A stretch of DNA of 31,389 nucleotides, taken from positions 1 to 31,389 of the IMG/VR virus record IMGVR_UViG_3300031851_000107; one strand, written 5' to 3'. The translations under genes and the position numbers were made by a program. The notes under the pieces were generated by a model. The model saw nothing but the letters and a program-made list of their open reading frames with translations, had not been told where the DNA came from and ran no database searches. Origin of the DNA: a virus. Shown in pieces: positions 10,878-16,317 of the stretch (its first letter is position 1; every line of letters begins with the position of its first letter).

Positions 10878-11849
10878 ATGCTGTTTGAAGAACAAATTGC
10901 AAGGAAACCTGACCTTTACCCTTGGACAAAAGATTTCATTGAAGCTATTTGGAAAGGCTTTTGGACACCAGAAGAATTTAATTTTAGATCAGACTATTCG
11001 CAGTTCAAAACTGATCTGAATGAACAAGAACAACAAATGGTTGTTCGTACAATGTCTGCTATTGGACAAATCGAAATCGCAGTCAAAAGTTTTTGGGCTG
11101 ATGTTGGTAAGCACTTGCCTCATCCGTCAATCAAAGATTTGGGCTATGCAATGGCAAATTCCGAAGTTATACATAATATGGCATATGAGAAAATTCTTGA
11201 TGTTCTACATATGAACCATGTATTTGAGGAAAATATGAACGAGGAAGTTATTAAAGGAAGAGTCGAGTATCTTAGAAAGTATAACAATAAAGTGTATGAA
11301 GATGATAAGAAACAATATATTTATTCGATTATATTGTTTACTTTGTTTGTGGAGAATGTTAGTCTATTTAGCCAGTTCTATATAATGATGCATCTAAATA
11401 GAAATAGGGCAGTGATGAAAGATTGTGCCCAACAAGTACAATATACACGAAATGAAGAAATGCTTCACGCACAAGTAGGAATCAAATTAATTCAAACTAT
11501 GCGTAATGAGTATCCAGAATATTTTGATGAAGAAATGGTAGCAAGAATTAGGGAAGAGTGTATTGACTCACTAAAAGCAGAAAGTAAAGTTATTGATTGG
11601 ATTATGGGAGACTATTCTGTTAAAGGTTTAAATGCAGATATTCTAAAGTCGTTTATTGCATATCGCATGGCTGAATCATTAGATCAGATTGGATTTGATA
11701 GTAGTGAAATTAAATTTGACCAAGAATTAGTTGACGAAACATTTTGGTTTGAGGAAGAATTGTTAGGCGCAAACATGACAGATTTCTTTCAAAAGCGTCC
11801 TGTAGAATATGCTAAAGGACAAGGCATAACAGCAGACGATTTATTTTAA
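10878..11849 (+). CDS. nrdB: Class I ribonucleotide reductase, beta subunit
   Basis: 323 residues. Holds the metal cofactor and tyrosyl radical that start reduction of ribonucleotides to deoxyribonucleotides, giving dNTPs for phage replication. The ligand set is complete: E66 (in AIGQIEIAVKSFW), E96 and H99 (in ANSEVIHNMAY), E159 (in FVENVSLFSQF), E194 and H197 (in RNEEMLHAQ). The radical Tyr is present at Y103, four residues after H99 as in E. coli (H118, Y122). The first ligand is Glu where E. coli has Asp. The C-terminus is acidic with aromatic residues (VEYAKGQGITADDLF), as expected for docking on NrdA. GGAG lies upstream of the ATG. It precedes nrdA by 10 nt, so the two are made together. 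Confidence 0.93.
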   Translation: MLFEEQIARKPDLYPWTKDFIEAIWKGFWTPEEFNFRSDYSQFKTDLNEQEQQMVVRTMSAIGQIEIAVKSFWADVGKHLPHPSIKDLGYAMANSEVIHNMAYEKILDVLHMNHVFEENMNEEVIKGRVEYLRKYNNKVYEDDKKQYIYSIILFTLFVENVSLFSQFYIMMHLNRNRAVMKDCAQQVQYTRNEEMLHAQVGIKLIQTMRNEYPEYFDEEMVARIREECIDSLKAESKVIDWIMGDYSVKGLNADILKSFIAYRMAESLDQIGFDSSEIKFDQELVDETFWFEEELLGANMTDFFQKRPVEYAKGQGITADDLF

Positions 11850-11859
11850 GGAGTATATA

Positions 11860-13503
11860 ATGGGATTTGAATGGGCAAATGAAGACTCACGGACTTTTTT
11901 GAGTCGTGGATATATTGATGGTAATATGACTGTCGAAGAAAGGGTGCGTAATATCGCACAGACAGCAGAGACTATCCTCGATAAAGAAGGTTTCGCTGAT
12001 AAGTTTTATGACTATATGAGTAGAGGATTTTATTCTCTTTCATCTCCAGTCTGGTCAAATTTTGGCACTAAGAAAGGACTTCCTATCTCATGTAACGGCG
12101 TATTCGTTGATGATAATATGGAATCAATTCTTTTGAAAACTGCTGAAATAGGTATGCAAACTAAAATGGGAGCTGGTACATCTGCATACTATGGAGCATT
12201 GCGACCGAGAGGTTCCGAGATTAAAAGTGGTGGTACAGCAGACGGTCCAATTCATTTTATGAATCTAGCTGAGACTACAGTGGACGTTGTCGCTCAAGGC
12301 AATGTTCGTCGTGGCTCTTGCGCTGCATATCTTGATGTAGAATCTCCAGACATTATGGAGTTTCTAGAATGTCGTGAAGAAGGTTCATCAATCATTAATC
12401 TAAGTCTTGGCGTTTGTATCGGTGATGAGTGGATGGAATCTATGATTGCGGGTGATAATGATAAACGCACTATCTGGGCAAGAATATTGCGTAAGAGGCG
12501 AGAAAGTGGTTATCCTTATCTGTTCTTTAAAGATACAGTTAATAACAATAAGCCACAGGTTCTTAAAGATCAAGACATTACTATCTGGGCATCTAATCTT
12601 TGCTCTGAGATTTGTTTACCTTCAAGTGAAGAATGGTCTTTCGTCTGCAATCTCGCGTCTATGAACTGTGCAACATTTGACGATTGGGAAGAAACTGATG
12701 CAGTAGAAACTATGATTTGGTTTCTTGATGCTGTCATGGAAGAGTATTGTGAAAAGACTAAAGATATTCCTTTTATGAAGTCTGCATATAATTTTGCGTC
12801 ACATTGGAGAGCATTAGGTCTAGGACAATTAGGCTGGCATACATATCTTCAATCTAAAATGATACCCTTTGAATCATTTACGGCGCATATGTTAGCTACT
12901 AAAATTAGTAAATTTATTGACGATAAGTCTTTAGAAGCGTCGAAAGAATTAGCTATTGAGTATGGTGAACCAAAAGGCATGCTGGGTACTGGTGAGCGCA
13001 ATTTAACGCGCACTGCTATTGCGCCAACAACATCTTCCTCTTTTATTCTCGGTCAAGTATCTCCAGCTATTGAGCCTCTGGCATCTAATTACTTCACAAA
13101 AGATTTAGCAAAAGGTAAGTTTACTTATCGTAATCCACATCTGAAAGCTTGTCTACACGATCATGGAGAAAATAATGATGAAACTTGGAAGTCTATTCTT
13201 GTTCGTGGTGGATCAGTTCAACATTTAGAATTTTTGTCTCAAAATGAAAAAGATGTGTTTAAAACTTTTAGTGAAATTGTGCCCCTTTCGATTGTTCAAC
13301 AGGCAGGAGCAAGGCAGAAATATATTGACCAATCGCAGTCGCTAAATATACTCATACATCCAGACGTATCTGCTAAAGATGTAAATGCATTAATTATTGA
13401 AGGTTGGAAACTAGGAGTAAAAACTTTTTATTATCAACGTTCATCTAATCCAGCGCAGGAATTGGTCAGAGAAATTCTTACCTGTGCATCATGTGAGGCT
13501 TAA
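11860..13503 (+). CDS. nrdA: Class I ribonucleotide reductase, alpha subunit, compact form
   Basis: 547 residues, far shorter than E. coli NrdA (761). Catalytic residues are all visible: C78 (PISCNG) and C263 (FVCNLASMN) as the redox pair, N246-C248-E250 (SNLCSEICLP) with the thiyl Cys, Tyr pair Y524/Y525 (FYYQRSS), and a C-terminal C542-A-S-C545 that receives electrons from glutaredoxin or thioredoxin. The N-terminus begins directly with the catalytic 10-stranded barrel region, so the ATP-cone that senses dATP in E. coli-type NrdA is absent; overall dATP feedback inhibition through that domain is not expected. AAGGAG precedes the ATG. A glutaredoxin gene that could reduce it lies at 19077. 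Confidence 0.93.
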   Translation: MGFEWANEDSRTFLSRGYIDGNMTVEERVRNIAQTAETILDKEGFADKFYDYMSRGFYSLSSPVWSNFGTKKGLPISCNGVFVDDNMESILLKTAEIGMQTKMGAGTSAYYGALRPRGSEIKSGGTADGPIHFMNLAETTVDVVAQGNVRRGSCAAYLDVESPDIMEFLECREEGSSIINLSLGVCIGDEWMESMIAGDNDKRTIWARILRKRRESGYPYLFFKDTVNNNKPQVLKDQDITIWASNLCSEICLPSSEEWSFVCNLASMNCATFDDWEETDAVETMIWFLDAVMEEYCEKTKDIPFMKSAYNFASHWRALGLGQLGWHTYLQSKMIPFESFTAHMLATKISKFIDDKSLEASKELAIEYGEPKGMLGTGERNLTRTAIAPTTSSSFILGQVSPAIEPLASNYFTKDLAKGKFTYRNPHLKACLHDHGENNDETWKSILVRGGSVQHLEFLSQNEKDVFKTFSEIVPLSIVQQAGARQKYIDQSQSLNILIHPDVSAKDVNALIIEGWKLGVKTFYYQRSSNPAQELVREILTCASCEA

Positions 13504-13505
13504 AT

Positions 13506-13670
13506 ATGGCAAGAAAAGAAACATTTTATATTGATTGTCCGTTATGTCAATATCAAACTGAAATTGAAGTATTAAATGGAAATGACGATGCTGAACCAGA
13601 AGCTTGTCCTATGTGTGGATCTCCTGTAGATTTACACAATGGTATTACAGACGAAGAATACGAAGAATAG
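13506..13670 (+). CDS. Zinc-ribbon miniprotein
   Basis: 54 residues, beginning MARKETFYIDCPLCQYQTEIE. Two CxxC knuckles (C11/C14 in CPLC and C34/C37 in CPMC) make a four-Cys zinc-ribbon; the C-terminus is acidic (ITDEEYEE). GAGG at 13495-13498, inside the end of nrdA, is 7 nt before the ATG, and the stop (TAGTG) overlaps the start of the next gene, so it is translationally coupled on both sides. The fold suggests nucleic-acid or protein binding. Its place directly after nrdA suggests a role linked to nucleotide metabolism or early expression, but nothing in the sequence fixes this. Confidence 0.75.
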   Translation: MARKETFYIDCPLCQYQTEIEVLNGNDDAEPEACPMCGSPVDLHNGITDEEYEE

Positions 13671-14095
13671 TGTGGTTTTACAAAGATAAAGAATTTATTC
13701 CAACCCAAGAAGAACTATCGTCTTGGGTTGGTTTTGTTTATGAAATTACAGATAAACAAAATAATATGAAATACATTGGAAAAAAAGGTTTTTGGTCAAC
13801 AAGGAGACTTGCACCACTGAAAGGTAAGAAAAGAAAAAGAAAAGTCGTAAAAGAATCTGATTGGATGAAATATTATGGATCAAATGAAGAGGTTAAGTTA
13901 TTAGTAGAAAATTACGGTCCAGAAAGATTTGAAAGAAGAATATTAAAATTATGTAAAAGTAAAGGTCTAATGTCATATTTTGAGGCCAAAGAACAGTTCG
14001 ATAAAGAAGTCCTTTTTAAAGACGAATATTATAATGCATTCATAGGAGTTAAAATACATCAAAATCATGTAAGGGGGAAGATCGAAGATGAATAA
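13670..14095 (+). CDS. SegE-like GIY-YIG endonuclease
   Basis: 141 residues from the GTG at 13670, which overlaps the preceding TAG as TAGTG. The frame is open farther upstream (an ATG at 13604), but those residues would lie over the zinc-ribbon gene and look unnatural. The GIY-YIG core is GFVYEITD (21-28) with KYIG (34-37), then candidate catalytic Arg at W-S-T-R-R (45/46). The C-terminal half (KYYGSNEEVKLLVENYG, ERRILKLCKSKGLMSYFEAK, EYYNAFIGVKIHQNHVRGK) matches the SegE-type GIY-YIG family of T4-like phages, with the conserved Glu in YFEAKEQ. It likely cuts DNA as a free-standing homing-type or recombination endonuclease. A strong terminator-like hairpin lies in its first 60 bases. Confidence 0.75.
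   Translation: MWFYKDKEFIPTQEELSSWVGFVYEITDKQNNMKYIGKKGFWSTRRLAPLKGKKRKRKVVKESDWMKYYGSNEEVKLLVENYGPERFERRILKLCKSKGLMSYFEAKEQFDKEVLFKDEYYNAFIGVKIHQNHVRGKIEDE
13700..13739 (+). terminator. Intrinsic terminator-like hairpin inside the GIY-YIG gene
   Basis: CCAACCCAAGA (13700-13710) and TCTTGGGTTGG (13721-13731) form a perfect 11-bp stem with six G-C pairs and a 10-nt loop, followed at once by TTTTGTTT. It is a good intrinsic terminator shape, sitting 30 nt after the stop of the zinc-ribbon gene, but inside the coding sequence of the GIY-YIG nuclease (the stem encodes part of PTQEELSSWVG). Confidence 0.65.
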
Positions 14096-14222
14096 CATAA
14101 TAGAATTTCCAAAATTATCTGAGAATGATAAGTTGTTTTTAGAAATAGAAAAACAAAAAGAAATAATAGAAAAACAAAAAGAACTCATCGAAAAAATGAT
14201 TCAGGAGAAAAAAGATGTATGA
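14088..14222 (+). CDS. 44-residue coiled-coil miniprotein
   Basis: 44 residues beginning MNNIIEFPKLSENDKLFLEI. The second half is three heptad-like repeats (EIEKQKE, IIEKQKE, LIEKMIQ), a clear short coiled coil. AAGGGGG at 14071-14077 is a strong RBS. It overlaps the end of the GIY-YIG gene by 8 nt and the start of the SNase-like gene by 8 nt, which argues for a real, coupled gene. No family recognised; possibly a dimerising partner of a neighbouring protein. Confidence 0.55.
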   Translation: MNNIIEFPKLSENDKLFLEIEKQKEIIEKQKELIEKMIQEKKDV

Positions 14223-14679
14223 ATATAAATGTAAAATACTAAGAGTCGTTGATGGTGATACCGTTGATGTAGATATTGATCTTGGTTTTGGAATTTGGGT
14301 ACATAGAGAACGTGTGCGTATGATGGGAATTGATACGCCCGAATCTCGCACAAGAGACTTAACAGAAAAGGCATTTGGACTTGCTAGTAAAGCTAGATTA
14401 AAAGAGTTGTTGCCTGTAGGATCAGTTCAAATTTTGAAAACGGAAGTTGATAAAAGTGGTGAAGATAAGAAGGGCAAATTCGGTAGAATTTTAGGCGACT
14501 TTTTACTAGAACATAAAACTGCTAATAATGTTTATGAAATAAGAAAAGTTAGTAGTATTATGATTGAAGAAGGTTATGCAGTTAAATATTTTGGACAAAA
14601 TAAAGCCGACGTAGATAGAGACCATCTAGTAAATAGACAAAAATTATTGCATGAAGGAGTAGTAGTTCTTAATGAGTGA
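14215..14679 (+). CDS. Thermonuclease-like (SNase) protein
   Basis: 154 residues forming a staphylococcal-nuclease fold. Key residues are present: D13-G-D-T (VVDGDTVDVDID), R35 and E43 in RMMGIDTPES with D40 between them, and R90 in KGKFGRILGDF. These correspond to the calcium ligands and the two catalytic Arg plus the general base Glu of SNase. No signal peptide is visible, so it acts in the cytoplasm or virion. It would cut DNA or RNA; breakdown of host nucleic acid or processing during phage development are both possible. It overlaps the preceding miniprotein gene and the next gene by 8 nt each. Confidence 0.8.
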   Translation: MYEYKCKILRVVDGDTVDVDIDLGFGIWVHRERVRMMGIDTPESRTRDLTEKAFGLASKARLKELLPVGSVQILKTEVDKSGEDKKGKFGRILGDFLLEHKTANNVYEIRKVSSIMIEEGYAVKYFGQNKADVDRDHLVNRQKLLHEGVVVLNE

Positions 14680-16281: not shown

Positions 16282-16317
16282 AACTGGCTTTCCCTGGGAA
16301 GTCAGTTTTTACTTTTT
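16282..16317 (+). terminator. Rho-independent terminator
   Basis: AACTGGCTTTCC (16282-16293) pairs with GGGAAGTCAGTT (16296-16307), 11-12 bp including two G-T wobbles, followed by TTTTTACTTTTT. It closes the RNase H transcript. A new small gene begins 16 bases later. Confidence 0.8.

Follow-up and report, generated by a model that had tools for sequence, protein, structure and literature searches.

Hairpins and terminators in phage nuclease genes

In T4 I-TevI and segB, and in mobE of Aeh1, RNA hairpins sequester the ribosome-binding site (RBS) and restrain the homing endonuclease, I-TevI is also a transcriptional autorepressor that binds an operator, and the transcripts of T4 segB and segG are processed by RNase E (PMC2988022). 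The same source places terminators in the 5' coding end of T4 mobE and segF and reports that about 30% of transcripts end at the mobE terminator, which it describes as weak (PMC2988022). The segF structure can be read from the T4 sequence as GACGCC-GAAA-GGCGTC followed by TTTT, 47-62 nt past the start codon, and is found by a laxer form of the terminator rule given below; that of mobE, whose ATG overlaps the nrdA stop codon, is visible by eye about 40 nt into the ORF and fails even the laxer rule. A literature search, with subscription papers outside its reach, yielded no description of a terminator in the family of SegE-type GIY-YIG genes.

The window considered here is a 31,389 nt stretch of the record of an uncultivated virus, a marine virus of bacteria, in which such a gene lies behind the ribonucleotide reductase genes. 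It resembles T4 mobE in that a free-standing nuclease gene near nrdA has an intrinsic terminator, here predicted, within its 5' coding end (for mobE, PMC2988022), but mobE encodes an HNH nuclease and the gene in the window a GIY-YIG protein, and in the window, unlike T4, a zinc-ribbon gene is placed between nrdA and the nuclease gene. The U-tract of the window is better than that of mobE, and termination at mobE has been measured (at the frequency given above; PMC2988022) whereas that in the window is predicted from sequence. T4 segF shares with the window a GIY-YIG gene and a GC hairpin with a T-run after the start (for segF, PMC2988022), but its stem is of 6 bp with a 4-nt loop, compared with 11 bp in the window. 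The initial annotation had instead drawn the parallel with I-TevI, and this does not fit: the hairpins of I-TevI, segB and Aeh1 mobE hide the RBS (PMC2988022), whereas the stem in the window lies inside the ORF, 30 nt past the start codon. The closer and direct precedent is provided by mobE and segF of T4.

The nrd-nuclease locus and its hairpin

The genes nrdB and nrdA, the zinc-ribbon ORF and the GIY-YIG ORF all run in one direction. The features of the locus are as follows.

10878-11849, plus strand: nrdB, ribonucleotide reductase small subunit
11860-13503, plus strand: nrdA, ribonucleotide reductase large subunit
13506-13670, plus strand: zinc-ribbon ORF, 54 aa, its stop overlapping the GIY-YIG start
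13670-14095, plus strand: SegE-type GIY-YIG nuclease ORF, 141 aa, GTG start (PF19835, phrog_447)
13700-13710, plus strand: 5' arm of the hairpin, codons CCA ACC CAA GA(A)
13711-13720, plus strand: loop, 10 nt, with two inner pairs (13712-13713 / 13718-13719)
13721-13731, plus strand: 3' arm of the hairpin, codons TCT TGG GTT GG(T)
13732-13739, plus strand: T-tract, within the codons of the GFVY motif
14088-14222, plus strand: small ORF, its start overlapping the GIY-YIG end
14215-14679, plus strand: nuclease ORF (endonuclease, by match to phrog_452), downstream of the hairpin
16284-16305, plus strand: downstream terminator-like hairpin, intergenic

The TAG stop codon of the zinc-ribbon ORF (13668-13670) overlaps the GTG of the GIY-YIG ORF (13670-13672). 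The GIY-YIG protein matches PF19835 (SegE_GIY-YIG) with 119.5 bits against a cut-off of 25 (E 1.3e-34) and phrog_447 with E 2.9e-38; the family assignment makes homing activity putative, and the family labels carry no RNA element. The label 'NAD synthetase' that is attached to phrog_447 and to many phage annotations of SegE-type GIY-YIG proteins is probably a misannotation that has been carried over and has spread. In many diverged relatives a zinc-ribbon ORF with two CxxC-type motifs and a length of about 45-65 aa stands directly before the GIY-YIG gene, often separated by a few nt or overlapping it, and the two may form a two-gene unit.

The stem pairs CCAACCCAAGA (13700-13710) with TCTTGGGTTGG (13721-13731), and directly 3' of it stands the T-tract TTTTGTTT (13732-13739), with T at 7 of its 8 positions. 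Sequence and folding thus bear out what had been noted at the outset, namely a perfect 11-bp stem with a T-tract within the GIY-YIG frame. The stem begins 30 nt past both the zinc-ribbon stop and the GIY-YIG GTG, and hairpin and tract together span 30-61 nt past the GTG of the SegE-type ORF. Six of the 11 stem pairs are G-C, the loop shrinks to 4 nt if the inner pairs, which lie beyond one mismatch, are formed, and the local fold of 13696-13740 has an energy of -19.2 kcal/mol. Under a rule requiring a T-rich tail, at least 10 kcal/mol and a loop of at most 13 nt, the plus strand of the 31-kb window contains two terminator-like structures only, that at 13700, which is the stronger, and that at 16284-16305. 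A simple terminator scan that admits loops of up to 8 nt misses the 13700-13739 hairpin because of its loop limit; T4 terminators typically have a loop of 4 nt. The hairpin was also considered as a member of a known RNA family and this was rejected, since Rfam gave no match above gathering score in the window and, when 13400-14200 was searched permissively, sub-threshold matches only, none of them credible.

Chance and protein constraint in the window

An important consideration for any structure within a gene is whether it is a by-product of the encoded protein, in this case the residues P-T-Q-E followed by S-W-V-G-F-V-Y, which in an AT-rich genome could yield a hairpin and a T-run that have no function. 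Read from the codons, PTQE and SWVG dictate 8 of the 11 pairs, and therefore a control that varies synonymous codons is the fair test. Pairing at all 11 positions, G-U counted, was found in 1431 of 20000 synonymous versions (7%), 11 Watson-Crick pairs were found in 100 of 20000 (0.5%), and 25 of 300 synonymous versions folded at least as well by minimum free energy (MFE). The T-tract is likewise partly dictated by the amino acids F-V-Y. The threonine of the stem uses ACC, the codon of only 58 of the 871 threonines in the window and the one that the C-G pair with the fixed tryptophan codon requires. The expectation of the initial annotation that such a structure is unlikely to arise by chance is upheld against dinucleotide shuffles, none of 200 folding as well (z -5.5), but not against protein constraint in the window alone, where the extra pairing is only suggestive. 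The strong part of the case is provided by comparison among relatives.

Compensatory change among relatives

Relatives of the GIY-YIG gene were taken from five IMG/VR scans, four of which contributed their best 80 each (loci L002-L081 and L090-L325), and from phage records (L082-L089). With the window, and leaving aside L001, which repeats the gene region of the window, this gave 325 sequences, some contigs being present more than once. A motif search recognised the gene in 318 of them (L044, L087, L096, L170 and L172-L174 were dropped), comprising 191 different stretches of DNA that encode 144 different proteins, and after removal of L094, L222, L258 and L281, to which a start codon was not assigned, 140 representatives were used for the later counts. 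Two alignments were examined. The first (A1) consists of 32 sequences chosen for proline at the first stem codon and from hairpin-bearing groups, with some hairpin-less members included; the second (A2) consists of all 59 distinct sequences with proline at the first stem codon, hairpin-less groups included.

Paired cells made up 78.7% of A1 compared with 69.8% in shuffles, and paired cells with changes on both sides numbered 33 compared with 12.0 (0 of 500 shuffles), a count of sequences and not of events, so that independence is overstated. Covariation was 0.259 against 0.108 (0 of 500), and each of the stem registers slid along A1 scored lower on paired cells, two-sided cells and covariation. 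The same excess was seen in A2, with 56 two-sided cells, again counted as sequences, against 32.5 (0 of 500). Counting how many pairs show any two-sided change gave an unremarkable value in A1 (6 against 4.4, reached in 69 of 500), and the number of further pair types was not unusual in A2 (167 of 500). When codons were replaced by synonyms in A1, none of 2000 versions attained the 277 paired cells observed (237.2 +/- 6.1 expected), the 71 at those three pairs whose third base is free (41.2 expected) or the mean longest stem run of 8.4 (4.8 expected). The changes themselves include the wobble pair CCA:GTT, which has become CCC:GTG in L008, L009 and L069, the pair ACC:GTT, which has become GCC:GCT in the group of L029 with both amino acids altered, and CAA:TGG, whose counterpart in L069 is GAA:TTG with G-U pairing. 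When a synonymous control was slid along the 144 proteins, the deepest dip was at the hairpin site (mean z -1.88); taking one value for each of 28 protein clusters the signal is modest, with a mean z of -1.22 and 18 of 28 negative (p 0.009).

A comparison of synonymous-site pairing in relatives had been put forward as a check on the structure, and its outcome is that the pairing is conserved beyond the needs of the protein, both by the two-sided changes and by the synonymous null. For the family, chance or a by-product of the protein was rejected by shuffles, synonymous codons, slid registers and dealt-out letters alike. As an account of the hairpin in the window the by-product is very unlikely and largely refuted, the relatives' pairing and its restoration by two-sided changes standing against it, together with the building of unrelated arms at the same codon and the lack of terminator-like structures in the rest of the gene (see below).

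It is also conceivable that selection has acted on DNA, the GIY-YIG protein binding or cutting the palindrome in a form of autorepression, for which the operator bound by I-TevI (PMC2988022) offers a parallel. This is hardly credible, as arms, loop size and position are too variable for a sequence-specific site and G-U pairs, which are relevant in RNA only, are frequent (18 of 32 sequences at one pair in A1).

A second stretch, about 21-27 codons past the glycine of GFVY, also folds more strongly than its synonymous controls (28 clusters, p 0.002).

Different arms at one position

Several relatives have hairpins that are built from other bases, at the same glycine codon or up to about four codons away from it. 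These include L036 (arms CCTGACC/GGTCAGG), L060, L098, L214, and L145 with its kin, in which a 13-bp stem with a 4-nt loop has its arm moved over GFV, as well as Methylophilales phage Melnitz-3 and Flavobacterium phage immuto. The stems of L263 and L271, read by eye, are out of register by one base. The enrichment of such structures at this place is pronounced. Hairpins of at least 14.5 kcal/mol numbered 51 in 22.4 kb of GIY-YIG gene start, and the remainder of the gene (39.3 kb) had none; there were 53 over 666 kb of sense coding DNA elsewhere, and intergenic or edge DNA had 41 over 84 kb. The terminator rule gave 47 structures in 23.4 kb of GIY-YIG 5' coding end and none in the gene's remaining 35.4 kb. 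In other sense coding DNA (569 kb) it gave 19, about 10 of which by eye lie in over-long ORF starts that are really intergenic DNA, and in intergenic or edge DNA (81.6 kb) it gave 28. The density at the GIY-YIG gene start is thus about 60 times that in other coding DNA. Loops of these structures ranged from 4 to 13 nt.

The position of these stems bears on the question of whether the hairpin acts in translation, slowing ribosomes just after initiation or helping to hide the start region, as at T4 I-TevI and segB, with termination being incidental. The weak GTG start overlaps the preceding stop codon, a weak outer helix in the MFE fold of a longer piece reaches the start codon, and strong hairpins in some relatives lack a U-tract, all of which would suit such control. 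However, the in-gene terminator-like stems begin 17-42 nt past the start codon and leave the RBS region outside, the conserved stem in the window contains neither the ribosome-binding region nor the start codon of the GIY-YIG ORF, and a T-rich tail comes after most of the strong hairpins at the gene start, 47 satisfying the terminator rule and 51 the energy rule. Translational control is therefore unlikely, and less likely than termination. The initial annotation had allowed for both; termination draws support from the compensatory changes, the synonymous excess, the enrichment at one site, the T-rich tails and the T4 precedent, and translation is the weaker alternative.

Distribution among relatives

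By the terminator rule 53 of the 140 representatives have a structure in the gene start, three have one just before the gene (L194, L210 and L215) and 84 have none. Among 17 named phage records the structure is in the gene in three, Sinorhizobium phage phiM19 and the Melnitz-3 and immuto phages mentioned above, and in Stenotrophomonas phage BUCT608 (L330) a strong 15-bp terminator-like hairpin lies 80 to 37 nt upstream of the GIY-YIG gene and not inside it; the other 13, the examined cyanophages among them, have no terminator-like structure by the rule. In RHph_I1_18 complementary CCAACG and CGTTGG can be seen by eye, and are not counted by the rule. Strong hairpins of 14-17 bp occur at or just after the GFVY site without a T-tract in L234, L219, L116 and L141, which is a misfit with a simple terminator. 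The points that count against termination include these hairpins lacking a U-tract, the 84 of 140 representatives without a structure, a stem much of which the window's own protein supplies for free, a T-tract in part set by F-V-Y, the modest signal among clusters and the deviation of the second stretch downstream.

A stem that serves as a nuclease site, or that guards the 3' end of the nrd/zinc-ribbon message, and at which polymerase does not terminate, would be conserved in the same way, and the cutting of T4 segB and segG transcripts by RNase E (PMC2988022) is an example of such processing. Yet a processing or stabilising stem has no need of the U-tract that is present in most of the strong hairpins, and L194, L210, L215 and BUCT608, which are without the in-gene hairpin, place a T-tailed hairpin just before the gene. 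We regard this explanation as decidedly improbable compared with termination.

In the tail of the structure TAT is preferred to TAC, being used in 44 of 50 hairpin-bearing sequences and in 51 of 90 others (p 0.0001, kinship ignored); for TTT and GTT the tendency is in the same direction but not significant, kinship again ignored. A zinc-ribbon-like motif, detected with a loose regular expression in any frame, was present in the 330 nt before the start in 85 of the 140 representatives, and the in-gene terminator-like structure was found in 49 of these 85 compared with 4 of the 55 others (Fisher 4e-10, the representatives not being independent). On a tree made from the protein downstream of the hairpin there were five well-supported independent pairs, for which a sign test of the zinc-ribbon link was not significant, and the association is not claimed as causal.

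Proposed role of the hairpin

A GC-rich stem and a U-tract that lie just past the end of an essential-gene operon, at the start of the abutting nuclease gene, have the look of an intrinsic terminator. The hairpin has the stable stem and U-tract of that class and, as with the mobE/segF type, it occupies the 5' coding end of an ORF for a free-standing nuclease. We consider it probable that it is an intrinsic (Rho-independent) terminator, most probably a partial one, in the first codons of the SegE-type GIY-YIG gene, trimming the nrd/zinc-ribbon transcripts ahead of the nuclease. RNA polymerase passing through nrdB, nrdA and the zinc-ribbon gene would form the hairpin some 30 nt past the start of the nuclease ORF and, on the U-tract that encodes the GFVY motif, would stop in a share of cases, so that the nrd/zinc-ribbon message would gain a stable 3' end. 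The initial annotation had supposed that most transcripts could end at the hairpin; the share measured at T4 mobE is about 30% (PMC2988022). The nuclease gene and the genes up to the terminator-like hairpin at 16284 would be left to read-through or to promoters of their own, as would the ORF at 14088-14222. That polymerase stops at the hairpin, how often it does so and that a low dose of nuclease is the benefit are what we infer from the structure and its setting; on this account the terminator probably keeps the nuclease scarce. It is likely that this is the known intragenic terminator of phage nuclease genes in another family, the comparison of relatives pointing to its upkeep and rebuilding within coding sequence.

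A bolder proposal is that the codons of the catalytic GFVY motif and of the ten residues before it are under dual selection, for the protein and for the terminator, the latter having been rebuilt several times from different bases and even with paired amino-acid changes, and that the whole acts as a ribosome-gated attenuator. Polymerase would then pass only if a ribosome re-initiating from the zinc-ribbon stop covered the 5' arm in time, tying the dose of nuclease to translation of the zinc-ribbon ORF. This is offered tentatively and is, on balance, doubtful.

If the hairpin is a partial terminator, a scattered observation from T4 mobE and segF would be extended to a widespread family of marine phage nucleases, with the addition of comparative evidence, two-sided changes with altered amino acids among it, that selection maintains such a terminator inside a gene. 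The locus would offer a test case both for how compact phage genomes fit transcription stops into abutting genes and for how free-standing nuclease genes are held low behind essential ribonucleotide reductase genes. Searches for terminators that are confined to intergenic DNA, or that limit loops to 8 nt, overlook such sites. Terminator-like hairpins also lie 66 nt from the start of a 263-aa ORF in L191, L196 and L201 and 66 nt from the start of a 248-aa ORF in L063 and L068, and these are possibly further cases of the same kind.
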